Source of the DNA: a virus
Strand: one strand, 5' to 3'
IMG/VR virus record: IMGVR_UViG_3300030109_000085
Span: 1-20,226 of that record
Length of the DNA: 20,226 bases
Part shown: one piece after another, positions 711 to 20,226 of the stretch
Layout of the letters: every line of letters starts with the position of its first letter
How positions within the stretch are numbered: position 1 is the first letter of the stretch
Program-made: the position numbers and the translations under genes
The notes under the pieces: model-generated
Told to the model about the DNA's origin: nothing
What the model saw: only the letters and a program-made list of their open reading frames with translations
Database searches by the model: none

Positions 711-790
711 TATTTTGTAACCCCCGCTACAAAAGAAACCCGATAGGATAAACCTATCACACCGCCCAAACTTTTAATTTTGTTTACCAT
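710..790 (-). CDS. 26-aa micro-ORF between the ejection gene and the lysis genes
   Basis: An ATG at 790 opens a 26-codon frame (MVNKIKSLGGVIGLSYRVSF, then six more residues) that ends with TAA at 710-712. Both ends are overlapped: the upstream 1398-aa gene stops inside its start (TAATG) and its own stop overlaps the start of the holin candidate (TAATG). The peptide is basic at the N-terminus with a Gly/Val/Ile-rich middle that could insert in a membrane. It could be an antiholin or pinholin-like peptide, a leader peptide that couples lysis gene translation, or simply a spacer kept open by chance. The double overlap is the best argument that it is translated. Confidence 0.5.
   Translation of the reverse strand: MVNKIKSLGGVIGLSYRVSFVAGVTK
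742..758 (-). promoter_or_regulatory. Stem-loop inside the 26-aa micro-ORF, possible attenuator
   Basis: A perfect 6-bp inverted repeat (GATAGG / CCTATC) encloses a 5-nt loop. On the transcribed minus strand the stem is followed, after GGG, by TTTCTTTT. This resembles a weak intrinsic terminator or translation-dependent attenuator placed just before the holin and endolysin genes. The stem is short and AT-rich, so activity is uncertain. Confidence 0.3.
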
Positions 791-3700
791 TATGTTCTTG
801 ACCTTTGTCTAATTAGTTGTTCACTTGGTGATAGTAATGCACTCTCTGTCTGTGTCAACCCTGTTTGAGAGTTAATATTCTGTGCTGTTTTTATTGTAGG
901 CATTGGCATGTTTGGTAATGGCGGTGTCTGTATATTAGCTTGTTGAACTGTCGCATCTTGTTGAGGTACAACATTAGTAGATCCCATAAGGTCTTGTATT
1001 TTTTGAAGATTTGTTTTTTCTTCTCTTTGATCAAGTTTTTTTCTTTTATAACTTTTTTCAATATTTCTAAACATTCTTTTAGGATAAAAATAATCTTTTT
1101 CTATTTTTTCTCCTCTTTCTTTTGCTATTTTTTCAGCTTCTTTTACTCTACCTTTCATACGCGAATCGTATGCAGTGTAAGGAATATTTTCACCTTTTAA
1201 TAATTTTCTAGCTTTTGAAGAAGATATATTTCTTTTTCTTAATAGTTTTTTTAATTCTCTTTCAGAAACACCTACTGTTTGAGCATCCTTTAATATAAAA
1301 TAAAAGTCTTGATTAACTTTAAAATTTTCTTCTTGTATATTTCTAAACTCATCTGCCATTACGTTAGGACCTCTTTGATTAAAGTTTTGTAAACTAAAAA
1401 ATTTCTCTGCAGTTGTAACTGATCTAATATTTCTATTATATTCTGTTATCTTGTAGTTCATGGTCCGTGGTACATCGACATTGATAATTCTAATTCCTGA
1501 TAACATTGCAAGTAATTCATCTTGTAAGTTTACAGGTTGTCCACCTTTTTTAATATCTTTTGTAAATCCTTTTACTAATTTATCACCTGTATCAATAAAT
1601 GTAGGTCTAACTCCTTTAAATATGTGACCTAAACTTTTCATAAATTTATCTTGATCGGAATCAGTTTCAGAATAAACTCTAGATCCTGTTTTAGTTGCAC
1701 CACCTCTACCACCTAGTAAAAGGTTTGTTGGCATTACATCAGACATTTTTTCTAATGCAATTGATTGAGATACAAAAGGATCTATTAATTTTCTAATAGG
1801 ACCGTCTTCCCCAAAGAAAAGTTTAAACATAGTGTCACTTACATCTCTTTGTTTTAATTTACCTTCTTCAATTGTTTTAATTGTTGCTCTAAAAGGTTGT
1901 GAGATTACGTCATAAGGACTAAAATATGAAAAATTAATTGCTTTACCTATACCTTTTTCCCATTTGTTAATAGGTAAAATAGCTGCTCGTGAATCCCATG
2001 GTGCAGATAAACTTCTTTTGTAAGCATCGATTTGTTCCATTGTAGTTCCTGTTAAGTTTTGAGCTAACGTTGAAACTCCTTTTTCTGCTCCACCTAAAGT
2101 TACAAATGCACCTAGTAGTCTTCTATAACCCATCTGTCTTAGTTGTGGGTTAGAGGATGTAGCTTCTTTTGCACCAATAGATAATATATTGTAAGTTGTT
2201 CTAATCATTTCAGCAGGGAAAGATACAAAGTTACCAAAGGGTAGTTTTCTTAAATCTTTAATAACTTGCGGTACTTTACTATATGTCGGATAAGTATTTC
2301 TTATTTGCCAAGCTGCTGCTTCGTCTAAAGCTTCATCAAATGTTTTAGCTTTTCCTGTAAACGTATTGAACTTATCAAATTTTCTACCTACAATTTCGTT
2401 TGTCCATTTAGCAATATCATCTACATTTTTATACATAGATTTCATTTGAGACTTTACATATTCATGGCCATACCATTTCCATAAGTTATCCCCTCCAGCA
2501 TATATTCTTGTTGCTGTTTTAATCATTTTAGAATCAGCTAACCTTGCAATTAAACTATCCATGTTTTTAACTTTTGCACCTGATCGTATGTCTTTTAACA
2601 CTGCTTGTAATTCTGATGCTACAATGTTTTCATCAATAACACCCAATCTAATTTTGTTTTCTAAATTTTTTATAAATTTTCCTTCATCAATTACTTTTCC
2701 TGCACCAAAGATATCATCAACAACCATTTTAATAGACTCAGTTACCGAAGCTCTACCTCCGATGTGACCATTGGCTAATGGAAACATACTAGCAGATGAA
2801 ACGTTTCTTACTTGAGTTACAGGTGAAAGAACGGTTTTACCGAATTGAGTTGCCACTTTAAACTGTAGTATATTTCTATATACAGAACTTTGTATCCAAT
2901 TATCAAATGTACCAGGTGCACCTTTCAATGCTTTAGCCATATCTTTAGAAGCAAATAACTTACTCATACCTGTTTTTAATAAACCTAAACCTTTTAGATC
3001 TCCAACTTTTTCTACATCAAACATTCGTCTAGCGTCAGCAATAGTTTTATCTTTAAATAACCAACCTTCATCTAAACCTATCTTAGCTAACTTATCTAGA
3101 GTTTGCTTGTTTACTGATTGAGTAATAGCATGAGACGTTGTCTGTAATACAGAAGATTTTAAATTGTTTTCTTCTCCTAATAATTTTTTAATTGCATCAG
3201 GTAACTCTTCTCCTGTTCTAATTAATTTATCTGATCTTAAAGTATCTTTAGATATACTTTGTAATATTCTTAATGGGTCAACACCATCTTGTTTTGTATG
3301 AACTAATATTTTATTTGTTAAACTTTCAGCCATCTCTTGTAAAGCTTGATTGTCTGTCATGTTTTTAGTTTTTAATTCTTTTAAAGCAGACTCTCTTATA
3401 TCTTTGTTTTTCTTTACTACATTTTCCAATATCCATTTAGAAGCTGCAGCTTTTAATTTAGGGTCAGCCATAAACTCAGGGTTAGTAAATGTTGCAAAAG
3501 ATTTTCTCATGTAACCTTTTATGTTATTTAACATAAAATTTTTAAGATCACCTTCTGGAAGTAAATTAGCAAATGTTTTTTTAGTGTTTAGTAATTCTTT
3601 ATTTAATAACTCTGCTGTTTCTTGTAGTTCTTTTGGTAAATCACTTTTTTTAGTTTGACCTTTTAAAAAAGCTAAAACTTTATCTAAATAATAATCCCTG

Positions 3701-4986
3701 CTTGCGGGTGAAGTAGTTAATGAATTATACTGTCCTTCAAAACTTTTAGCTAAATCATATGATTTCTTTTCTATAGACTGTAAATACTTTTCTATTGTTC
3801 TAGATCTTGCTTTAATTTCTCTATTAGCTTCTGATGTAAGTTGATATTTTAAACCAGTTCCTTTGCCTAATGATCTAAACGCAGATAAAAAATTATCTAA
3901 TCTCTTTAATCTTTTTTCTAATGGATCACTACTGGATGTAGAAAACATTCTCCATTTATCAAATGAGGGTAATTGTTTTGCACCTGTACCTATTTTTAAA
4001 GGGGCTAGTGCTTTGTCAATAACAAAACTGCTTGCTTTTCTAGCTGCTTGACCTGCTGTTGTAGAACCTGGCACATTAGCTGCAAGATAAGTTACAGGTC
4101 TCACAACTAAAGTATCTACACCTGTTAATGCATAACCGGCTGGTTTCATAATACCATACTTTGCACCAAGAGTTAAAGCTTTACCTAAAGGTTTACCCAA
4201 TATAGGAAAACCTGCTCCTATAATAGTTCCTTCGGCTCCAAATTTTAATTTGTTTCTAAATCTTGCAAGTGCAAGATCTCTTCCATCCAAACCTTCTTCA
4301 CTTTCTTTTTCTAAAACTAATGGACCTTCTTCATTTATTTGTCTTGCACCTGATGTTATAAAATCTGTTGCACCAAAAGCAGTCGCCATATATCCAACAC
4401 GTTTTGCAATATCTGATCCTTTGGCCGTGGTCCCTGTTGCTTTGGCAGCTGCATTTGCATCTTTAACTTTTTTACTTTTTAAAAGTTTCTTAGCTCTATT
4501 CATTATTTTGAATACACCACCACCAGGTAAACCGTATTCAATTGCAATTTTGTTAATAGTTCCTAACAATGTTTCAGGGTCTTGTATTTTATTATCCCTG
4601 TATGCTTCATCTAATTTTTCAGTTAGTTGAGTATCTCTTGCTGCATCGATACCTGTAGTTATTAAATCACCGAATGAATAACTAATATTTTGAGCTGCGC
4701 CAAATATAGATTTTTCCATATCTTCAAAAAAATCTATGTAATCTTTTTCCTGTGGTTTAGTTTTACCTTCTGCTAAATCTGTAATTCTAGGTAATTTATT
4801 ATCCATTAATGATTTTATGTTGTAATTTCTTAATGGAGTATTACTCATAGACATCATAAGGTCAGCCGCACCTTTCCATGTAAATTTTACAGGTCTTTTT
4901 TTCTTTGTAAGTGTAGATCGTAAAGTGTCTGCTAATGTATCCTTGTCGATAACTATTCTATTATCTTTAGGTTTAAAGGGTTCCAT
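790..4986 (-). CDS. Very large internal virion / DNA-ejection-type protein
   Basis: At 1398 aa this is the largest protein in the window, similar in size to T7 gp16 (1318 aa), the ejected internal core protein. The sequence is Lys-rich and largely helical. Residues about 197-215 and 249-315 are Gly/Ala-rich and hydrophobic, interrupted by charges, which is compatible with membrane-interacting segments used during ejection. The C-terminal 150 residues are very basic, then Pro/Gln-rich (PPLPNMPMP), and end in a compact TQTESALLSPSEQLIRQRS tail. I cannot see a lytic transglycosylase or polymerase motif. It follows the 691, 302 and 368-aa genes by minimal spacing (1 nt after the last), as ejection proteins usually cluster. 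Function is inferred from size, composition and position, not from a recognised catalytic motif. Confidence 0.65.
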   Translation of the reverse strand: MEPFKPKDNRIVIDKDTLADTLRSTLTKKKRPVKFTWKGAADLMMSMSNTPLRNYNIKSLMDNKLPRITDLAEGKTKPQEKDYIDFFEDMEKSIFGAAQNISYSFGDLITTGIDAARDTQLTEKLDEAYRDNKIQDPETLLGTINKIAIEYGLPGGGVFKIMNRAKKLLKSKKVKDANAAAKATGTTAKGSDIAKRVGYMATAFGATDFITSGARQINEEGPLVLEKESEEGLDGRDLALARFRNKLKFGAEGTIIGAGFPILGKPLGKALTLGAKYGIMKPAGYALTGVDTLVVRPVTYLAANVPGSTTAGQAARKASSFVIDKALAPLKIGTGAKQLPSFDKWRMFSTSSSDPLEKRLKRLDNFLSAFRSLGKGTGLKYQLTSEANREIKARSRTIEKYLQSIEKKSYDLAKSFEGQYNSLTTSPASRDYYLDKVLAFLKGQTKKSDLPKELQETAELLNKELLNTKKTFANLLPEGDLKNFMLNNIKGYMRKSFATFTNPEFMADPKLKAAASKWILENVVKKNKDIRESALKELKTKNMTDNQALQEMAESLTNKILVHTKQDGVDPLRILQSISKDTLRSDKLIRTGEELPDAIKKLLGEENNLKSSVLQTTSHAITQSVNKQTLDKLAKIGLDEGWLFKDKTIADARRMFDVEKVGDLKGLGLLKTGMSKLFASKDMAKALKGAPGTFDNWIQSSVYRNILQFKVATQFGKTVLSPVTQVRNVSSASMFPLANGHIGGRASVTESIKMVVDDIFGAGKVIDEGKFIKNLENKIRLGVIDENIVASELQAVLKDIRSGAKVKNMDSLIARLADSKMIKTATRIYAGGDNLWKWYGHEYVKSQMKSMYKNVDDIAKWTNEIVGRKFDKFNTFTGKAKTFDEALDEAAAWQIRNTYPTYSKVPQVIKDLRKLPFGNFVSFPAEMIRTTYNILSIGAKEATSSNPQLRQMGYRRLLGAFVTLGGAEKGVSTLAQNLTGTTMEQIDAYKRSLSAPWDSRAAILPINKWEKGIGKAINFSYFSPYDVISQPFRATIKTIEEGKLKQRDVSDTMFKLFFGEDGPIRKLIDPFVSQSIALEKMSDVMPTNLLLGGRGGATKTGSRVYSETDSDQDKFMKSLGHIFKGVRPTFIDTGDKLVKGFTKDIKKGGQPVNLQDELLAMLSGIRIINVDVPRTMNYKITEYNRNIRSVTTAEKFFSLQNFNQRGPNVMADEFRNIQEENFKVNQDFYFILKDAQTVGVSERELKKLLRKRNISSSKARKLLKGENIPYTAYDSRMKGRVKEAEKIAKERGEKIEKDYFYPKRMFRNIEKSYKRKKLDQREEKTNLQKIQDLMGSTNVVPQQDATVQQANIQTPPLPNMPMPTIKTAQNINSQTGLTQTESALLSPSEQLIRQRSRT

Positions 4987-4987
4987 G

Positions 4988-6094
4988 TTACGCCCCCTGT
5001 GGTAATGTCAGATTTACGTCGTATTGTTGATTGAATGATGCGATGTCTTCGCCTGTTTGAATGTTTGCAAAGTCTAATAAAGCTTGTTTACTGTTTGCTA
5101 ACAGTTGTACAATGTCATTAGATATTTCTTGCGGTAATCTAGATCTTAATTGTGTGTAAGATAAATCTTCAACTTGATCAGGGTTTTGTGCAACTTCTTC
5201 CATCATTGGTTCACCACCAAAAGCTAAACCTACTCTACCGCCTTTGTTAAAGTTAGTAGAATCACCATAATTAAATACTTGCAAATCTCGATAAGCAAGT
5301 TTGGTAGCCTCCATTGTTCCGTCTACAACTAATTCAACATTTTGTTGTATCTCTTCAGGACCCGCATCTGGATTATCTCTTTGGTACTCTTTAATTCTTT
5401 TTTTATTTTCTTTTTCAACAGCTTCTGTTCTAGCTTCTAAAAATAAATCTTCATTTCCAAGAATAGTTGCGTATTCAGCGTTTTCACCTAGTTCTTTTTT
5501 TAAAAAGTTTTGATTTTTTTGTATTGTTCGTCTTGCTTGTTTTTTTTCATCTATTGTAGCAGTACCACTGTTTAAAATATCATTTGCATCAAAAATAGCT
5601 TGTTGTGCATCTCCAATAATTTTCATTTCAACTTCTGGTGTTTTTCTACTGTCATCTCCCTCTGCTAAATTTTTTATTCTTTGTTCTTCTAAATCATATT
5701 CAGAAGCTAAGGCACCTGTAAATAAATCTTCAGCTGCACTTCCTTTTCTGTTTCTTTCAGCCATTTTTGCTGCTTGGAAAGTTTTAAAAGGATCTTTTGC
5801 AGAGTCTGCTGCAGTAGCAAGTAGACCGCTAAAACCATCTCCTCTTGAAGGTCTAGACATTAAATCTAAACCAAATGAAGTTAAAAAACCTGGACCAGAC
5901 ATAGGACTAAAAGAACCTTGTTCTCCTCTAAATTTTTCTAAATCTTTCATAGCTCTTTCAGTTGTAGATAAAGCCCTGTCGTATGGATCCGTTCCTTGAT
6001 TATATTGTTTTCTTGGTTGATCTAACCCTGATGTAATACCAGAGTTTGTAGAACCACCCATTCTAAACATTGGTCTTTTTAATGTTCTATTCAT
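4988..6094 (-). CDS. Virion-associated protein with a GGRVG segment and conserved C-terminal domain
   Basis: The 368-aa protein starts with a basic RPMFRMGG segment (residues 7-14), has a long charged helical middle (about 100-270), a glycine motif FNKGGRVGLAFGG at 282-294, and a C-terminal domain (about 311-366) of the pattern LSYTQLRSRLPQEI followed by DIVQLL and FNQQYDVNL. I associate these segments, from memory, with structural proteins of marine pelagiphage-like viruses, where they recur in different proteins. No enzyme motif is visible. It starts by a TAATG overlap with the 302-aa gene and is followed after 1 nt by the 1398-aa gene, so it is likely an internal or ejected virion component. 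Confidence 0.6.
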   Translation of the reverse strand: MNRTLKRPMFRMGGSTNSGITSGLDQPRKQYNQGTDPYDRALSTTERAMKDLEKFRGEQGSFSPMSGPGFLTSFGLDLMSRPSRGDGFSGLLATAADSAKDPFKTFQAAKMAERNRKGSAAEDLFTGALASEYDLEEQRIKNLAEGDDSRKTPEVEMKIIGDAQQAIFDANDILNSGTATIDEKKQARRTIQKNQNFLKKELGENAEYATILGNEDLFLEARTEAVEKENKKRIKEYQRDNPDAGPEEIQQNVELVVDGTMEATKLAYRDLQVFNYGDSTNFNKGGRVGLAFGGEPMMEEVAQNPDQVEDLSYTQLRSRLPQEISNDIVQLLANSKQALLDFANIQTGEDIASFNQQYDVNLTLPQGA

Positions 6095-7002
6095 TATCCA
6101 AATAATTTTCCACCCAACGCTCCGTATACACCTGCAAGTGTTGCTCCTGCTCCTAGTGCAGTTTGCATTGGTGTAGGGTTAGGTACGTTAGTTGTTTGTG
6201 TTGCTCCTGGGTATCCACCCATGATTCCAGTTACTATGTTTGCATATCTATCAACTTGTTCTTGTGGTTGATAAGCTGTCATTCTTGCTGCTTCTCTTTT
6301 CGCATCTAATTCTGCTTGAGCTTGTGCTTGATTAATTGAACCTAGTTGACCTAGACGTGAAATGTCTTGTCCTTTTAATCCTGGTACTAGTTGTGCTAGA
6401 CCTTGTTGATTTTGAAATTGTTGTTGTGCTGCAGCTTGTGCCGCTTCAAAACCTCTTTGTTGTAATCCTGCTTGTAAACCAGCTCTTTCTCTAGCCATGC
6501 CTGAACCAAACTCTGCTAGTTGAACACCTTCTCTACCACCACCAAAAGCGCCAGAAGCAACTGCTTGATCTCTTATTTGTTGTTCTTGTATTGCTTTGTT
6601 TCTATCAAATTCTTTTAATGTCGTATCAATAACTTGTGATTGATAAGGTGACATGAATTGTTGAAATGCTTGTGGTCCTGTAGCAGATTGTGCTGCAGTT
6701 AAAAAAGGTTGGTAAGATCCAAGACCTGATGTAGCTAAAGCTTGTGCTTGTTTTTGTAAAGCATCTTGACCTGCAACTTGTGGAGCAAGTCCTGCTAAAC
6801 TTTGTTGTCTAATATCAAATTGTTGAGCAGCTTTTTGTCTTGCTGCAAATTGATCTGCTGTTTCACCAGCAAACTGTGTAATACCACCTGAGCCAGGCGC
6901 AACGACAGGTACACCTGTTTGTGCGGTTACTTGTGTTGCTAAATCTTGACCTAATTTTTCTACAAAAGGTGCTGGTTTTGTAACTGTAGTTTGTACGGCC
7001 AT
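6094..7002 (-). CDS. Gln/Ala-rich internal virion protein
   Basis: The 302-aa protein is unusually rich in Gln and Ala (AAQAAAQQQFQNQQ around 187-200), predicting long helices. Residues 116-165 hold an MSPYQSQVID segment followed by ASGAFGGGREG, a pattern that I recognise from ejection/tail-associated proteins of many phages. The final 20 residues (ALGAGATLAGVYGALGGKLF) form a Gly-rich hydrophobic segment that could span a membrane, in keeping with a protein delivered into the host envelope, as T7 gp14 is. It overlaps both neighbours by one base (TAATG at 7002 and 6094), so synthesis is likely coupled. Assignment as a gp14-like core protein is inference. Confidence 0.6.
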   Translation of the reverse strand: MAVQTTVTKPAPFVEKLGQDLATQVTAQTGVPVVAPGSGGITQFAGETADQFAARQKAAQQFDIRQQSLAGLAPQVAGQDALQKQAQALATSGLGSYQPFLTAAQSATGPQAFQQFMSPYQSQVIDTTLKEFDRNKAIQEQQIRDQAVASGAFGGGREGVQLAEFGSGMARERAGLQAGLQQRGFEAAQAAAQQQFQNQQGLAQLVPGLKGQDISRLGQLGSINQAQAQAELDAKREAARMTAYQPQEQVDRYANIVTGIMGGYPGATQTTNVPNPTPMQTALGAGATLAGVYGALGGKLFG

Positions 7003-9077
7003 TATAATACTTCCTCTAATCTTTGTGATGTTTGAAACATTTTTTTAGCGCCTTCTAAGCCTTGCGATTCTTCTGATACTTCACCTCCGGCTTCGAGGTT
7101 TTTCATCATGTTATACATGACTTCTGCGCCCTTGTCTACATTTCCCTCACCTGCATTTCTAACAGCATCTGCTGTAAATACAAATTCATTTTTAGATAAT
7201 CTCGCAGGAACATCATCTGCTTTTTCCATTCTACCTATTGGCACAAACCCACCTTCAGCTCTTAAATCCATTTCTTCACCATCCATATCTAACAATGGCA
7301 TAGTCTCTTTCGCTACTGGTTCTTTAGAACCTTCTGCTTGTGAATTTTTGTTTCTTTCATAAAAGTTTTTAAAAGTGTCAGCTTTTTCATGCATTGTAAC
7401 TAATGGACTGTCAGGGTTTGCTTCATATCTTTGAACCCATTTTTGATAAACTTTATTTTTTGATAGATCTTCAGAACCAGAAGAGTAACCTATTCTCCCA
7501 CCTTCTGCTAAAAATCTTGTTGCTAAATATTTTTCAGGATCTGCTCTATATCTATCTAAATAAAACTCATCTTCTTCCTCAGCATCGTATGTACTTTGTT
7601 TTGGAGTCATTAATCCTGCTGCTAATGATCCTGCTGCTATTCCAGTTAAAGCTTTGTTATTTTTTATAAACTCTAATATACCACCACTTCTATTACCCAT
7701 TCCTGAAGTTTCTTTACCTAAAAAAGATCTTGTTAAAAAATCTTTAATTCCTAGACCTTTACCAGACATCAATCCTTGTGCACCAAGTCCTAACAAAGCA
7801 GCTTTACCTAATGGTGATTTATAAATCTTACCAATTGTTTTCTTAGCCTTCTTAACTAGCTTACCTAAAAAATATTGTTGTCTCCCTGATTCAAGGTCCA
7901 TGATCCCACCTTCGTATTCAGACATACCACCATCAGCATAACCGTTTCTAGGAGCAAAGATATTAGGCATACCTGTAGGGTCATAGACAACGTCACCTGC
8001 TTGTGGTGCTCCTGATCCTGGTAGGTTTGTGCTAGGTGCTGCACCTGCAAAATTATTTAATAATCCTCCTCCTGTTGTTGCCTGTAAAGTTCCTGGAGGT
8101 TTAAAGTTAGGATCAATTTGAATTCTATCTGGTACATTAGCAAAAGCTTCAGCACCACCTTTTACAGGAATATTTGTACCAGAAAATGCTTCTAGTGTTG
8201 GGTTTGTAAAATTATTATCTTCAGGCATGATAGAACCTAGTCCACCTTCATCTCCACCACCTTCTCCTAGTGTTGATTCTGCCGAATTTATTTTTTGACT
8301 AAGTGCAGCTAGTTCTTGTTCTGCTGATGATACATTACTTCCTAATTGATTTAGTCTAGGAAATATTCCACCACCTTCTTGAAAAGCAGCTCTGCCTCCG
8401 TCTGCTAAAAATCTATATGCCGTAGGATCTTCTTCTTCAACTTCGTCTATAACTTTATCTTGTACTAAAGGTAAAGCCGTAATATCTCCTCTTTCAGCTC
8501 CTGCACTCTTTGCATCAATGCCACCACCAGTAAAAGGCATAGGATTTCCCATTGCATCTACTTCACCGGAAAGTCTATTTTTCATTTGTGTTTGATATAC
8601 TTTTTCATATTGTTCTTCTGTTAAATTACTTGGACTAAATGAAAGACCGTCCTCGTCTAAACCTAAAACATCCTGTACTAATTTTCCAGCATTAGGACCT
8701 TGCATAAACTTGTTTATAAAAAATTTTCTATTTGGTTCTCTACTTAAATCAGCTGCAAATTTTAAATATCCAGGAGTAAATTTACCATAATTAGAAGGTT
8801 CATATATAAATTTTTTTCTCTCTATTAATTTATCTAATCTTTTATTTTCACCACCAATTGCTCCTCTATCAGGTTCTTTGTCTTTTATGCTTGTAATTTT
8901 TCCTGTAGTTCCACCTGGACCTTTTCCACGAGACATAATTCCTTTTTCTCTTGGAGAACTTGTATTACTGCTTCTTTTAGATTTAGTTCGACCACTAATA
9001 AAACCAGCATCTCTATATCCAGTTCGTCCACCTTTTTGCATTAATTGTTTGTATTGTTGTGCGTTTGTTATGGCCAT
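7002..9077 (-). CDS. Large modular virion protein with repeated GGR motifs and PARLS/EFVF domain
   Basis: The 691-aa protein is a string of low-complexity linkers joining short motifs. KGGRTG is at 15-20; RFLADGGRAAFQEGG at 222-236 and RFLAEGGRIGYSSG at 521-534 are clear internal duplicates; YADGGMSEYEGG is at 380-391. Hydrophobic helices lie at about 424-439 and 477-492. The C-terminus (about 608-660) carries the conserved DDVPARLSKNEFVFTADAVR block followed by GAEVMYNMM, which I know from tail/internal proteins of many phages. No catalytic residues are apparent. It leads the four-gene ejection block, 9 nt after the GT-A gene. A scaffold, tape-measure-like or ejected protein are all possible. 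Confidence 0.6.
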   Translation of the reverse strand: MAITNAQQYKQLMQKGGRTGYRDAGFISGRTKSKRSSNTSSPREKGIMSRGKGPGGTTGKITSIKDKEPDRGAIGGENKRLDKLIERKKFIYEPSNYGKFTPGYLKFAADLSREPNRKFFINKFMQGPNAGKLVQDVLGLDEDGLSFSPSNLTEEQYEKVYQTQMKNRLSGEVDAMGNPMPFTGGGIDAKSAGAERGDITALPLVQDKVIDEVEEEDPTAYRFLADGGRAAFQEGGGIFPRLNQLGSNVSSAEQELAALSQKINSAESTLGEGGGDEGGLGSIMPEDNNFTNPTLEAFSGTNIPVKGGAEAFANVPDRIQIDPNFKPPGTLQATTGGGLLNNFAGAAPSTNLPGSGAPQAGDVVYDPTGMPNIFAPRNGYADGGMSEYEGGIMDLESGRQQYFLGKLVKKAKKTIGKIYKSPLGKAALLGLGAQGLMSGKGLGIKDFLTRSFLGKETSGMGNRSGGILEFIKNNKALTGIAAGSLAAGLMTPKQSTYDAEEEDEFYLDRYRADPEKYLATRFLAEGGRIGYSSGSEDLSKNKVYQKWVQRYEANPDSPLVTMHEKADTFKNFYERNKNSQAEGSKEPVAKETMPLLDMDGEEMDLRAEGGFVPIGRMEKADDVPARLSKNEFVFTADAVRNAGEGNVDKGAEVMYNMMKNLEAGGEVSEESQGLEGAKKMFQTSQRLEEVL

Positions 9078-9086
9078 TGTAGTATT

Positions 9087-9947
9087 TTATTTGGTTTTTT
9101 CTACGTCGTCAATATGTTTAAGACTCAATAATTCATCAAAGAAACGACCCTTGTATTGATACTCCCCAACATGGGTTATGTATTCAGTAACAAGAGCATG
9201 TATCTTACCGTCCATATCTCTCCATCTTTGACAGAATCCGAAGTCTTCACCAAAATATCTTTTGGTTTTTATGTCGTGTAGTGTATCAAATAAATTAAAA
9301 AAATTCTCCCTTTTTATTTCTTTTCCGTTAATAATTGTTGGTTGAAATATCTCTAATTCTGGGTGGTTTTTAATCATCTTTTCTAGTACATGTCGCTTGA
9401 TTAGCATACATCCTGTAGGAGCATGAGTTACTTCCATGATACCTTTGTCTACTTTTATGTTCTTCTTATCCTTTACCTTCATTGGATACATCAGACCATT
9501 AGCAAGTAAGTCTTCTTTAGTCTTAACCATGTCTGTCTCTTTTAGTCTTTTCCAAGCCTTATCTACATCATAGTTCTTCATAGGATAAGGACAGGCAATA
9601 ACATCTTTGTCTGCTTCTATCATTTTCATAATAGTATCAAACTCAAAGTCTATGTCAGAGTCTATAAATAACATATGCTCATAGTTATGTTCGTGGTTCA
9701 AGAAATCTGATACACATAAGTTTCTACCTTGTGTAACTAGTGATGACTTCAACATTGTAAAACTAACTAGTATGTTCTTCTTTAAACACTGTTGTTGAAA
9801 CATCAACACTGATTGACAATAGTGCATAGAAACATCGCTATGACAAGGTGTACAAACCATAATCTTATACTTAGGTTTGTTATCTAAACTTATCTCTATT
9901 GTGTTAGGTTCTTCTTTGTTAAACCATATAGGTTCATTGTTTTGCAT
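9087..9947 (-). CDS. Glycosyltransferase, GT-A fold (GT2-like)
   Basis: The 286-aa protein has the hallmarks of a metal-dependent GT-A transferase: an N-terminal beta strand leading to VCTPCHSDV (31-39), a DxD motif LFIDSDID with Asp96 and Asp98, a GEDFGFCQRW segment at 233-242 that supplies the usual acidic catalytic residue, and THVGEYQYKG at 258-267 with a His often used for metal binding. It would move a sugar from a nucleotide-sugar to an unknown acceptor in the cytoplasm. Its ATG is preceded by a strong AGGAG six bases upstream and lies inside the end of the GT4 gene (14-nt overlap). Co-location with GT4 and structural genes suggests virion or host-surface glycosylation; the acceptor cannot be told from the sequence. 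Confidence 0.85.
   Translation of the reverse strand: MQNNEPIWFNKEEPNTIEISLDNKPKYKIMVCTPCHSDVSMHYCQSVLMFQQQCLKKNILVSFTMLKSSLVTQGRNLCVSDFLNHEHNYEHMLFIDSDIDFEFDTIMKMIEADKDVIACPYPMKNYDVDKAWKRLKETDMVKTKEDLLANGLMYPMKVKDKKNIKVDKGIMEVTHAPTGCMLIKRHVLEKMIKNHPELEIFQPTIINGKEIKRENFFNLFDTLHDIKTKRYFGEDFGFCQRWRDMDGKIHALVTEYITHVGEYQYKGRFFDELLSLKHIDDVEKTK
9933..9944. repeat. 12-bp direct repeat, copy at the 3' end of the GT4 gene
   Basis: TTCATTGTTTTG on the plus strand is identical to 10865-10876. This copy contains the stop codon of the GT4 gene and codons 2-5 of the GT-A gene. Confidence 0.6.
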
Positions 9948-10869
9948 TGATTGCTCCTTTTAAAAAATTAGTCCAGGCCATAGCTTGCTTGTCCCAGTTA
10001 TAATATTGATTAGTATACTTTGATTGAAACTTTAAATGATCTTGTATTACTTCGTTATCTAAAGTTATTGCTGCAGCTTCTATTGCATTTGCAAAGTTCT
10101 TAGCTAGTTGTTTACGGTCCGTTAAGTATGGTACATAGATTGGAAACTCTGCACCTGTTTCAAACAATGCACCTAGATTAGTTGTAATACAATACAATCC
10201 ACCTGCCATACATTCTAGTAATGATATACAAGAAGTCTCTTCCCATATACTAGGATACGCATACATCTTATAGTCTTTGATGTGTTCTCTTATGTACTCG
10301 TTTGATTTATATCCAATGTAATTTACATTAGGTAATACTTCTGCTTGCTCGTAAAGTGTTTCATAGTATTTATGATTAGAGTTATGAAAGTCTTTACCAT
10401 AAACTTCTGTAGATGAATAAACATCTAAAGTAATTAATGGATTCTTAACTAACTGCATTGCACCTAATAAAACATTTAATCCTCTCCAAGGTGTGTTTTG
10501 ATGTATAATCTTTATAGGTTGACCTTTTATATAAGGTGTTGTTGGTTCTATCTTCTCTATACCATTCTTTATAACTACACATTTACTTGTAGGTAAATCA
10601 AATGCTATTCTAAACTTTTCAAAGGTCCAATGACTATTAAACACATACCAATCATACTTGTTGTGATTGCCGTGGTCCGTGAACCATGGTGCTAGATTCG
10701 GTTGATCGTATGAATTCTTTTGCCATAAGATATTTATCTTATCTTTATCCAGCGGTATTTTTTCAGGGATCGATGTACAAATAGAAAATTTATCAAGTAG
10801 AGTTTTATCTACATGGTTTTTTAAAAATTCTAATTGTAACTCCGTCCCACCTTTAGGTGTTTGATTCAT
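9934..10869 (-). CDS. Glycosyltransferase, GT4 / group 1 (GT-B fold)
   Basis: The 311-aa protein fits a short GT-B glycosyltransferase. The N-terminus has PKGGTE (5-10), typical of the acceptor-side glycine loop; VIKNGI at 99-104 and RGLNVLL at 129-135 mark the start of the donor domain; YPSIWEETSCISLLECMAGG at 205-224 contains the EX7E pair Glu211/Glu219 that binds the nucleotide-sugar. Retaining sugar transfer is expected, with donor and acceptor unknown. The gene overlaps the 75-aa gene by 17 nt and the GT-A gene by 14 nt. A perfect 12-bp direct repeat (9933-9944 and 10865-10876) covers exactly its stop and start, suggesting it arrived as a cassette. Confidence 0.85.
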   Translation of the reverse strand: MNQTPKGGTELQLEFLKNHVDKTLLDKFSICTSIPEKIPLDKDKINILWQKNSYDQPNLAPWFTDHGNHNKYDWYVFNSHWTFEKFRIAFDLPTSKCVVIKNGIEKIEPTTPYIKGQPIKIIHQNTPWRGLNVLLGAMQLVKNPLITLDVYSSTEVYGKDFHNSNHKYYETLYEQAEVLPNVNYIGYKSNEYIREHIKDYKMYAYPSIWEETSCISLLECMAGGLYCITTNLGALFETGAEFPIYVPYLTDRKQLAKNFANAIEAAAITLDNEVIQDHLKFQSKYTNQYYNWDKQAMAWTNFLKGAINAKQ

Positions 10870-14859: not shown

Positions 14860-15843
14860 TTACTGATACTTATACCTTATCATAACTATACCAGAACCAC
14901 CACTTCCCGCAGTTCCAGGATTACCGGCAGTTCCACCTCCACCCCCTCCAGTGTTAGCTGTTCCAGAATTTCCTCCATTTGATTTAGCGGCTCCACCTCC
15001 TCCAACTGCGGCTGGACCGACATAACTTGATGGATTAGTTGTTATTGCTGAACCACCTCCACCACCAAAATATCTTAAAGCACCATCTGGTCCTGGTGTT
15101 CCAACAGAAGGACTTGGATTAAATGCAGTTCCTACACCAGCACCACCAGCACTATTTCCTGATCCACCTGAAGCTCCTGCTCCACCTCCACTTGATTGTG
15201 TATTTACACTTGGGTCACTACCTACTGGACCACCTGGATTTCCTTGAGGAGGACTTACAGGAGGAGTATTTCCTGAACCTGCACTAGCTCCTGAAGGATT
15301 AGCTACTTTTTTTGCACCACCACCAGAACCTCCTGGGTTACCATTTGCATTATTATTAAGTAAAGCTCCACCTCCACCACCACCTGTAGATGTTATAGTT
15401 GAAAAAACTGAGTCTGATCCGTTAGCTCCTGGAGGTTGTGGTCCAGGTTGAACGCCTCCTGCTCCTCCCGATCCAACAGTTACTGGATAACCTTGAGCAG
15501 TTACGGTTAAACCACCACCTGGATTAGCTAAAGGACTCCCTGTCCATGCAGCAGGGCTTGGAACGGATTCTCTAAAACCTCCTGCTCCACCTCCACCACC
15601 TTTAAATGCTCCACCTCCACCACCAGCTACTACTAAATAGTCTACTGTTGCTGGACCACCTACAGGATTTGTTGGTGCGTTACCTGCTTGTGTAACTGTG
15701 AAAGTTCCTGGTGATGTAAAAGTGTGAATTTTGTAATCGCCTACAGTTGTAATTGTTCCACCTGTAGCTGATGTAAATTTTTTATTGCTGCCGCCTCCAA
15801 TGCCTCCCGGCATTTTGACTGCTTTACTTCCAATTAAAGGCAT
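14860..15843 (-). CDS. Gly/Pro-rich fibre-like virion protein
   Basis: The 327-aa protein begins with a short beta domain (KFTSATGGTITTVGDYKIHT, then FTSPGTFTVTQAG), then the characteristic DYLVVAGGGGG segment (about 68-78), a very long Gly-rich body with many GGGGG runs and Pro-rich patches (PGPQPPG about 133-139; TPPVSPPQ about 193-200), and a closing strand SGIVMIRYKYQ. This arrangement is the glycine-rich domain widespread in phage tail/fibre proteins, where glycine tracts form a polyglycine-type bundle. The start has a strong AGGAG eight bases upstream. It is followed by the two oxygenases, making it a candidate substrate for hydroxylation, but this is inference. Low complexity makes exact homology hard to judge. 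Confidence 0.75.
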   Translation of the reverse strand: MPLIGSKAVKMPGGIGGGSNKKFTSATGGTITTVGDYKIHTFTSPGTFTVTQAGNAPTNPVGGPATVDYLVVAGGGGGAFKGGGGGAGGFRESVPSPAAWTGSPLANPGGGLTVTAQGYPVTVGSGGAGGVQPGPQPPGANGSDSVFSTITSTGGGGGGALLNNNANGNPGGSGGGAKKVANPSGASAGSGNTPPVSPPQGNPGGPVGSDPSVNTQSSGGGAGASGGSGNSAGGAGVGTAFNPSPSVGTPGPDGALRYFGGGGGSAITTNPSSYVGPAAVGGGGAAKSNGGNSGTANTGGGGGGTAGNPGTAGSGGSGIVMIRYKYQ

Positions 15844-18526: not shown

Positions 18527-20226
18527 TTATTTCTTTTTATTATCTTCTTTTAACAAATCTATTTCTTTTTTCAAGTCTTGAATAGCTTTAACTAATACAG
18601 GTATTAAATGTGAATTAGTTACTTTTAAACTTTCATCATTTTCATTATCAATAATAACATTATTAGAACCTTCAAGTTCTAATATGTCTTGTGCTAAAAA
18701 TCCATATTTTGTCATTCCATGTGGTTTTGGATTTTCTCTTGATTTTTTAAATCTAAAACTAACTGGTTTTAATTTATCTACAAATTCTAAACCATGAGGC
18801 ACTTCTTTAATTTCTGTTTTGTCTCTTAAATCTGAGGTTACTGTCCAATCTACTTTTACATAAGCATTAGTAATATCATTATGACCAGCTATAAATCTAT
18901 TACTTTCAGTAGTAATGTTAATCATACTAGCATCAGAACCAGCACAAATACCGACTGCTACGTTAGCATCTCCTGTTGTAAGATTTCTTAAAGCACTTCT
19001 TCCAATAGCTGTATTAGCACCACCTGTTGTACTACTAAGCATTGCCGCCGAACCAACTGCTGTGCTTTCTGACGTTGTTGTATTATTAGAAAGTGATCCT
19101 GTTCCAACCGCTGTGTTACAAGCACCTGTTGTATTACATATTAAAGAATTTTGTCCAACCGCTGTATTATCTGCTCCTGTTGTAGTTATTCTCAATGAAT
19201 CTTGACCGACTGCTGTATTGCAACAAGCTGTAGTATTACAAGCTAATGCATCATGTCCTACTGCCGTATTCATATCTCCAGTAGTAGTTTTAAGTAATGC
19301 GGCATTACCTAACCCTGTATTATTGTAACCATCTGTATTACAAGCTAATGCATAATTTCCTAAAGCAACATTCCCTGAACCAGTAGTGTTGTCGCCTAAA
19401 GCTTCTAAACCTACTGCTGTGTTATTTGGGCCTGTTGTATTATTTTCTAAAGCTTGTTTACCAATTGCAACAGTATTATCAGCTGTTGTATTTTTATGTA
19501 AAGCACAAACACCCACAGCAACGTTATTATCTCCTGTCGTATTACATTGTAAAGTTATATGACCAATTGCAGTATTACAAACACCCTCTGTATTTTTAGT
19601 CATAGAACCATTACCCATAGCAACGTTTCTACAACCAGTAGTGTTACTATCCATAGTTCCATCACCAAAAGCATTGTTCTGACCACCTGTTGTATTAGCA
19701 GCTAAAGCATCATGACCAATTGCTGTGTTTGAACCAGCTGTTGTTGCTGCTGTTAAAGCAGAATTACCTACTGCCACATTTTGATCTCCGTCTGTAGTAG
19801 CTTGTAAAGCACCTTGACCTATTCCTGTATTGGAATGACCTGTTGTGTTAATATTTAAAGCATAATAACCAAGAGCTGTATTATTATCTGCTGTTGTGTT
19901 ATTTTCTAAAGCACGATTACCAGATGCTGTATTACCTGTACCTGTTGTGTTATCCATTAAAGCACAAAAACCAATTGCTGTATTATTGTTTGCTGTTGTA
20001 TTTTCATATAAAGCATACCTACCAACTGCTGTATTACTATGACCTGTTGTGTTACAATTCATTGCATTATTACCAACAGCTGTATTACTAGAAGCTGTTG
20101 TGTTCACTTGTAAAGATTGTCTTCCAACTGCTGTATTACTTGCTCCTGTTGTGTTAGCTCTTAAAGCACAAAAACCTAATGCTGAATTATTTGCACCTGT
20201 TGTGTTAAGTTGCAAAGCAACATGAC
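18527..20226 (-). CDS. Tail fibre with 17-residue repeats and S74 intramolecular chaperone (5' partial)
   Basis: The frame runs off the right edge of the window (first complete codon at 20224), beginning in mid-repeat, so the N-terminus and true start are missing. The visible part has 25 copies of a 17-residue unit (consensus NTTGxxNTAVGxxALxx), like the YadA-head/Hep_Hag beta-roll repeats, then a linker and an S74 peptidase-type chaperone: TSDLRDK (putative self-cleavage Ser about 100 residues before the end), LKPVSFRF, YGFLAQD, and a terminal coiled coil LIPVLVKAIQDLKKEIDLLK. S74 domains trimerise the fibre and then cut themselves off. This is likely the host-recognition fibre. The GT9-like gene follows after 2 nt. 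Confidence 0.9.
   Translation of the reverse strand, partial: HVALQLNTTGANNSALGFCALRANTTGASNTAVGRQSLQVNTTASSNTAVGNNAMNCNTTGHSNTAVGRYALYENTTANNNTAIGFCALMDNTTGTGNTASGNRALENNTTADNNTALGYYALNINTTGHSNTGIGQGALQATTDGDQNVAVGNSALTAATTAGSNTAIGHDALAANTTGGQNNAFGDGTMDSNTTGCRNVAMGNGSMTKNTEGVCNTAIGHITLQCNTTGDNNVAVGVCALHKNTTADNTVAIGKQALENNTTGPNNTAVGLEALGDNTTGSGNVALGNYALACNTDGYNNTGLGNAALLKTTTGDMNTAVGHDALACNTTACCNTAVGQDSLRITTTGADNTAVGQNSLICNTTGACNTAVGTGSLSNNTTTSESTAVGSAAMLSSTTGGANTAIGRSALRNLTTGDANVAVGICAGSDASMINITTESNRFIAGHNDITNAYVKVDWTVTSDLRDKTEIKEVPHGLEFVDKLKPVSFRFKKSRENPKPHGMTKYGFLAQDILELEGSNNVIIDNENDESLKVTNSHLIPVLVKAIQDLKKEIDLLKEDNKKK
18533..18840 (-). other. S74 peptidase / intramolecular chaperone domain of the tail fibre
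   Basis: The C-terminal 104 residues start at VTSDLRDK, where the Ser in TSD (codon near 18835) is the expected self-cleavage nucleophile. YGFLAQD and the terminal Lys/Glu-rich coiled coil (LKKEIDLLKEDNKKK) complete the domain. Confidence 0.8.
18932..20226 (-). repeat. Array of 51-bp tandem repeats in the tail-fibre gene
   Basis: About 25 units of 51 bp (17 codons) without indels run from the window edge to about 18932. The protein consensus is NTTGxxNTAVGxxALxx; the plus strand shows the recurring CCTGTTGT and GCTGTATTA words. Units are diverged, with the last (LTTGDANVAVGICAG) grading into the linker. The array continues beyond the window. Confidence 0.9.

Follow-up and report, generated by a model that had tools for sequence, protein, structure and literature searches.

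A short GGR peptide at module joints of unrelated, putatively virion-associated proteins in HTVC027P-type pelagiphages

In phage T4, the short CTS peptide is common to otherwise unrelated proteins (IPI-III, Alt) that enter the head and are co-ejected with the DNA; it is a single propeptide at the N-terminus, 10-20 residues long, which the prohead protease cleaves off (PMC7411985). The Family 1 encapsulin targeting peptide, with the consensus SDGSLGIGSLKRS, is short and glycine-rich and loads cargo in an HK97-fold shell (PMC8346489). Polyvalent proteins are large and modular, their genes lie near portal and terminase genes, and they are predicted to be packaged and injected; the InPase domain is found mainly in these proteins (Iyer et al. 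2017, PMC5512222). No description of the motif or of a pelagiphage virion proteome was found in the open-access full-text literature, preprints excluded, and the GGR motif was not seen in the passages of PMC5512222 consulted.

The window, i.e. the whole stretch of 20,226 bases analysed here, derives from a pelagiphage of the HTVC027P type. On its minus strand, the first genes encode an S74-chaperone fiber, proteins resembling oxygenases and a 650-aa virion structural protein; after two glycosyltransferase-like genes come those of the 691-, 302-, 368- and 1398-aa proteins, with an M15 peptidase last. This is the gene order of gp75-gp85 in the cultured Pelagibacter phage HTVC027P, so that the 691-, 302-, 368- and 1398-aa proteins are the orthologs of gp82, gp83, gp84 and gp85, respectively. 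The fiber (18527-20215) is made of NTTGxxNTAVG-type repeats with the S74 domain at its C-terminus, and the glycosyltransferase-like genes (9087-10869) lie within the virion block at the position of HTVC027P gp80-gp81. The features discussed below are as follows.

790..4986, minus strand: 1398-aa protein, gp85 ortholog in the same gene block, without the motif (ORF; synteny)
4988..6094, minus strand: 368-aa protein, gp84 ortholog (ORF; synteny), located outside the coordinates of the preliminary description
5213..5248, minus strand: motif copy of the 368-aa protein, residues 283-294 (NKGGRVGLAFGG), GG at 285, KGGRVGLAFGG
6094..7002, minus strand: 302-aa protein, gp83 ortholog, between both carriers and without the motif (PHROG 4287)
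7002..9077, minus strand: 691-aa modular protein, gp82 ortholog, with three strict motif copies (ORF; synteny with HTVC027P gp82)
7089..7259, minus strand: C-terminal module EGGFVPIGRMEKADDVPARLSKNEFVFTADAVRNAG... of the 691-aa protein, residues 607-663 (PHROG 5448; invariant block in A3)
7473..7508, minus strand: motif copy 3 of the 691-aa protein, residues 524-535 (AEGGRIGYSSGS), GG at 526, FLAEGGRIGYSSGS
7902..7937, minus strand: degenerate GG element of the 691-aa protein, residues 381-392 (ADGGMSEYEGGI), GG at 383/390, YADGGM..GG
8370..8405, minus strand: motif copy 2 of the 691-aa protein, residues 225-236 (ADGGRAAFQEGG), GG at 227, FLADGGRAAF..GG
9003..9038, minus strand: motif copy 1 of the 691-aa protein, residues 14-25 (QKGGRTGYRDAG), GG at 16, KGGRTGY

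The full motif is A-[DEN]-G-G-R-[IVAT]-G-[YFL]-x-x-G-[GST], about 11 residues, and the consensus of 129 copies in the first 80 listed loci is A-D-G-G-R-I-G-[YF]-x-x-G-[GST]. Every string named in the preliminary description is present in the 691- and 368-aa proteins. Among 45 relatives of gp82, the motif was found at the aligned site of copy 1 in 26, of copy 2 in 11 (aligned GG in 40) and of copy 3 in 31 (GG in 44). The YADGGM element, previously counted with the GGR copies, is not one of them, since the strict motif occurs at its column in 0/45 relatives (GG in 34/45); it directly precedes an LGKLVKK helix module. The two RFLA(D/E)GGR copies had been taken for internal duplicates, and this was not borne out: they have only ~8 residues in common, with DNA identity of 42% upstream and 33% downstream, so that what they share is a word and not a duplicated segment. 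The gp82 relatives carry 0 to 3 copies each, with none in 3/45, so no single copy is essential. The copy of the 368-aa protein separates a variable middle from a conserved C-terminal domain, and GGRx[GA] occupies the same column in 38/40 gp84 relatives.

Like the T4 CTS, the GGR motif is a short peptide common to unrelated proteins; it differs in that its copies are mostly internal, often multiple and placed at module joints. The gp84 copy (285) and two gp82 copies (227 and 526) are internal, and only copy 1 (residue 16) lies near an N-terminus. The encapsulin peptide is likewise short and glycine-rich, whereas GGR includes an Arg and has mostly internal copies; among the listed matches of the AGR-codon set described below, it lies a median of 208 residues from the C-terminus, in place of a C-terminal GSL-type peptide. 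HTVC027P gp59 matches a major head protein family.

The C-terminal tails of terminase-portal proteins (e.g. ASGGVAYMLGE) resemble encapsulin targeting peptides by eye. This peptide is different from GGR: GG[LIV][AST]x[LMF] was detected in the last 14 residues of 20/65 terminase-portal ORFs vs 2/546 others, and xxGG[LIV]Ax[LM]LGE-stop tails occur in loci L148, L163, L165, L179, L181, L189, L192, L197, L207, L236, L249 and L254. A second tail, ~PESGPxPQGLxxLLxRvrk, ends the portal-adjoining gene in L148, L181, L186, L165 (second gene), L207, L236 and L254. Another word, ~LVxPSxDGSRPGY, recurs in L146, L157, L207, L220 and others, and D[GD]xRPGY was found in 11/773 ORFs and in none of the shuffled sets.

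With the polyvalent proteins, the gp41, gp42, psg36 and psg37 families share the gene position beside portal or terminase, and one motif carrier from outside the lineage (L352) has an InPase domain. InPase is the only known domain in that chain, while polyvalent proteins combine at least two disparate ones, and domain searches found no named enzymatic domain in gp41, gp42 or gp82. Tape-measure proteins (PHROG 5448, 23013) resemble gp82 in its C-terminal GG..DDVPARLS.NEFV module, which is common to them: residues 607-670 of the 691-aa protein match PHROG 5448 (E 3.6e-4). The likeness covers only these residues, against a profile of 3103 positions. Judging by its relatives, the lineage is probably podovirus-like, with no long tail indicated. 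Pfam and PHROG domain searches with the 691- and 368-aa proteins detected only this tape-measure-like end and one weak match to a PHROG with no known function.

The preliminary description proposed counting the motif against a shuffled background, and the outcome depended on its length. Enrichment of the bare GGR is weak (691-aa protein: observed 3, mean 0.55, 280/20,000 shuffles reach 3; 368-aa protein: observed 1, reached in 2,646/20,000), and the longer GGRx[GA][FYLW] is enriched (691-aa: observed 3, mean 0.017, 0/20,000 reach 3; 368-aa: 73/20,000 reach 1). The 327-aa protein at 14860-15843, with many glycine runs and no GGR motif, makes a useful composition control. In 1,024 distinct ORFs, called mechanically in 130 related loci fetched with the 691- and 368-aa proteins, 135 GGRxG[YFLW] were observed vs 2.55 expected.

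We also scanned for any DNA encoding the eight residues ADGGR[IV]G[FY], with AGR and then CGN arginine codons, and each search returned at least 120 stretches in viral contigs, while the reversed pattern had 0 matches in the viral collection. Since the query fixes residues -2 to +5, independent evidence comes only from the reading frame and from the Gly at +8. Among the matches listed, whose loci are a sample in scan order, 131/132 of the AGR set and 139/140 of the CGN set lie in frame (for the AGR set, that of the longest ORF), with Gly at +8 in 124/132 and 120/140. The forward pattern gave 49 stretches, mostly out of frame, in 84,980 cellular genomes (257 Gb), with 11/49 in the main frame and Gly at +8 in 2/49.

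The peptide, rather than its DNA, is conserved. The 364 distinct contexts contain 200 different encodings for the 18 nt of GGRxG[FYLW] and 344 for the longer, 36-nt motif; the second and third motif Gly show background codon usage and the first favours GGT/GGC. This free variation of synonymous codons indicates selection at the protein level. Rickettsia palindromic elements are mobile elements inserted in coding sequence, and recurrence of the GGR motif in unrelated genes could recall such an insertion. A mobile DNA element of this kind is scarcely credible here, and we reject it on the codon evidence: the copies lack the expected DNA-level identity, with 344 different 36-nt sequences in 364 copies and two of three Gly positions at the genome background, and two copies in one protein are scarcely more alike in DNA than two from different proteins (0.67 vs 0.63).

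The motif also marks joints between modules. We compared 22 residues on either side of the motif in pairs of motif proteins, and among the 275 pairs whose identity on one side was 80% or more, 218 had 25% identity or less on the other (pairs are non-independent). With the test point shifted by 45-80 residues, the corresponding counts were 7/63, 14/67, 5/60, 28/239, 15/143 and 8/114, from equally non-independent pairs; shifts below ~35 residues overlap the motif and were left out. The contrast was smaller (0.825 at joints vs 0.596, pairs again non-independent) in a control that used random positions and a threshold of 50%. For instance, the protein of locus L124 is identical over 22 residues to that of L080 upstream of the motif and to that of L122 downstream, the opposite sides being unlike. 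Proteins that are alike on one side of the motif and unlike on the other place it at module joints.

This strong association with homology breaks, together with the flexible linker predicted in the AlphaFold2 models, would suit a passive linker or recombination joint, i.e. a tolerated hinge that is kept because short repeats aid in-frame recombination of modules. We consider this quite unlikely, as Arg, the aromatic residue and the +8 Gly are kept while codons vary (the 200 encodings above). The gp84 motif moreover stays at its fixed place (38/40) with variable flanks: the G, G, R and G columns are conserved at 0.95-0.98 and the preceding 28 residues average 0.33. Neither a passive hinge nor a DNA-level signal predicts such retention of residues or such a fixed place, which counts against both.

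The modules that follow an internal motif are also found near N-termini elsewhere (50/262 vs 7-32 of 200-312 at shifted positions), e.g. MNRRSFIK starts the ORF in L149 and its counterpart GGRIGFADGGMSRRTFLK is internal in L165. This observation, and the location at joints, are what a processing site would produce, with cleavage at or close to GG-R by a protease of phage or host that would free the modules inside the head or following entry. Metallopeptidases have been proposed to process polyvalent phage proteins (PMC5512222), and HTVC027P gp34 has been assigned a C33-peptidase-associated domain, with speculation on polyprotein processing (PMC12753301). The mirror case is not enriched, with upstream modules at C-termini elsewhere in 7/262 vs 2-15; conservation reaches several residues beyond any cut in either direction; and no maturation protease is found among 25 of the 32 Pfam families detected across 59 HTVC027P proteins. 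Processing is the main rival to a docking function, and we regard it as unlikely. As a separate observation, a TAT-like RR[TG]FLK with a hydrophobic stretch comes right after the internal GGR motif in L165 (residue 535), L192 (427), L197 (455) and L209 (63), and the same element forms the ORF N-terminus in L149.

Predicted structures suggest that nearly all motif copies are flexible, low-order linkers. The AlphaFold2 models of the 691- and 368-aa proteins are poor (mean pLDDT 62 and 55), with shallow alignments of 45 and 40 rows, for which low confidence speaks to disorder only indirectly. The gp84 motif falls within residues 276-310 with pLDDT < 50 (about 35 at the motif), between a helical region and the helical C-terminal domain; the gp82 elements at 227, 383, 526 and 609 all lie in stretches with pLDDT < 50, and copy 1 is at the edge of a low-pLDDT stretch (17-63). 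PDB fold searches with both models gave no match at E up to 0.001, and the PDB sequence profile of gp84 had no match. That of gp82 matched Huntingtin (E 6e-4) and gave two weaker hits, all read as helical or low-complexity noise.

A related GG element opens the conserved tape-measure-like C-terminal module (GGFVPIG..DDVPARLS), and both elements occur in the SLT-bearing tail protein of L318, as could be the case for an ordinary beta-turn in a folded repeat domain common to tail proteins. The low pLDDT at nearly all copies, the unrelated sequence on both sides and the lack of a PDB fold match in the above searches make this turn very unlikely. The generic features of a short linear motif are all present, i.e. 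a conserved short peptide, unrelated contexts of low order and protein-level selection. The earlier proposal of a short linear element, rather than a fold, common to unrelated proteins is upheld by these models and by the motif-masked BLAST between gp41, gp42, psg36, psg37, gp82 and gp84, where E was 0.16 or worse between families.

Motif carriers come from two packaging/virion gene blocks, the TerL-portal interval and the region around the putative ejection proteins. Among the 152 motif ORFs of the AGR set (matches listed), 100 belong to the gp75-gp85 block, 46 lie next to or between the TerL and portal genes, and the remaining 6 lack neighbours of a typed family. A gene like those of HTVC027P-type references was present in 118/120 listed AGR-set loci (exceptions L158 and L211) and in 114/120 listed CGN-set loci. 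In the related loci, the motif was carried by 53/132 gp82-type, 56/81 gp84-type and 4/97 gp83-type ORFs, and by 0/101 gp75-type and 0/77 gp85-type ORFs. In the listed AGR-set loci, the carriers were 67/70 gp82, 16/41 gp84, 10/12 gp42, 6/6 gp41, 2/2 psg36, 2/5 psg37, 1/54 gp83 and 1/32 gp85 ORFs; these loci were picked by the motif, so the family rates are inflated and the zeros are the informative part (0/62 gp75, 0/35 portal, 0/22 TerL). The listed CGN-set loci had the motif in 0/86 portal and 0/58 TerL ORFs. HTVC027P has the motif in gp41, gp42 and gp82, the GGR form being absent from its gp84, and the uncultured relative 023Pt_psg01 has it in psg36, gp82 and gp84. The complete HTVC010P and the initial 34.9 kb of HTVC011P (39.9 kb in all) have zero copies. 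The GGGREGV of the 302-aa family is a separate conserved element and was left out of the motif counts.

Sequence comparison puts the motif in at least five protein families with no relation to one another. Loose clustering fused 72/84 carriers, and a coverage rule used instead gave 56 clusters of 123; singleton clusters may be fragments or distant homologues, and the claim is therefore kept at five or more. There was no Pfam match at E 0.01 for 54/56 carrier representatives, and the other 2 had a TAT-signal match only. Outside the lineage, we detected the motif in the InPase polyvalent-type protein of L352 (7393-10077) and in the SLT-bearing tail protein of L318 (3-6002). A large protein of L154 (160-5457) also has the motif; of the large carriers in L352 and L154, one has the InPase domain and one adjoins the portal gene, and the L318, L352 and L154 phages differ in base composition from the HTVC027P-type lineage.

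Taken together, the results make GGR a short linear motif that is selected as a peptide and located at joints between interchangeable modules. In other phages, gene blocks like those of the carriers are a source of proteins that are packaged or ejected. That the carriers are virion proteins is suggested by synteny together with two family matches, and the motif probably marks proteins loaded into the virus particle. The link to cargo comes from the 302-aa neighbour, which matches the DNA ejection protein family PHROG 4287 (profile match, E 7.4e-10), and from the InPase and SLT carriers outside the lineage. A repeated, exposed peptide that selection maintains in the protein whatever sequence adjoins it has the look of a docking tag, and our tentative best explanation is a flexible, exposed docking tag and joint on virion-internal, ejected proteins. 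The carriers would be built into the head and then ejected with the DNA, each copy tethering its modular protein to one common phage partner during head assembly, with the capsid interior, the portal or an ejection core as candidate partners; the glycine hinge would also allow in-frame swapping of modules. The 1398-aa protein is without the motif and the 302-aa family has nearly none, so some putative ejected proteins have no tag.

A broader and more doubtful proposal is that this SAR11 ocean-phage lineage uses one 11-residue universal tag and joint for head cargo, docking to a single virion receptor as an encapsulin-like code, with in-frame cassettes shuffled across unrelated genes of two regions and a second, C-terminal GGLAxLLGE-type tag on terminase-portal proteins.

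For most proteins of the virion block in these marine phages no function has been assigned, and a peptide that marks a class is a handle to predict which of them enter the particle; it also offers binding experiments a small, defined target. Should the motif prove to be a docking tag, this lineage would illustrate how new ejected proteins can evolve fast, by the swapping of modules around a fixed peptide.
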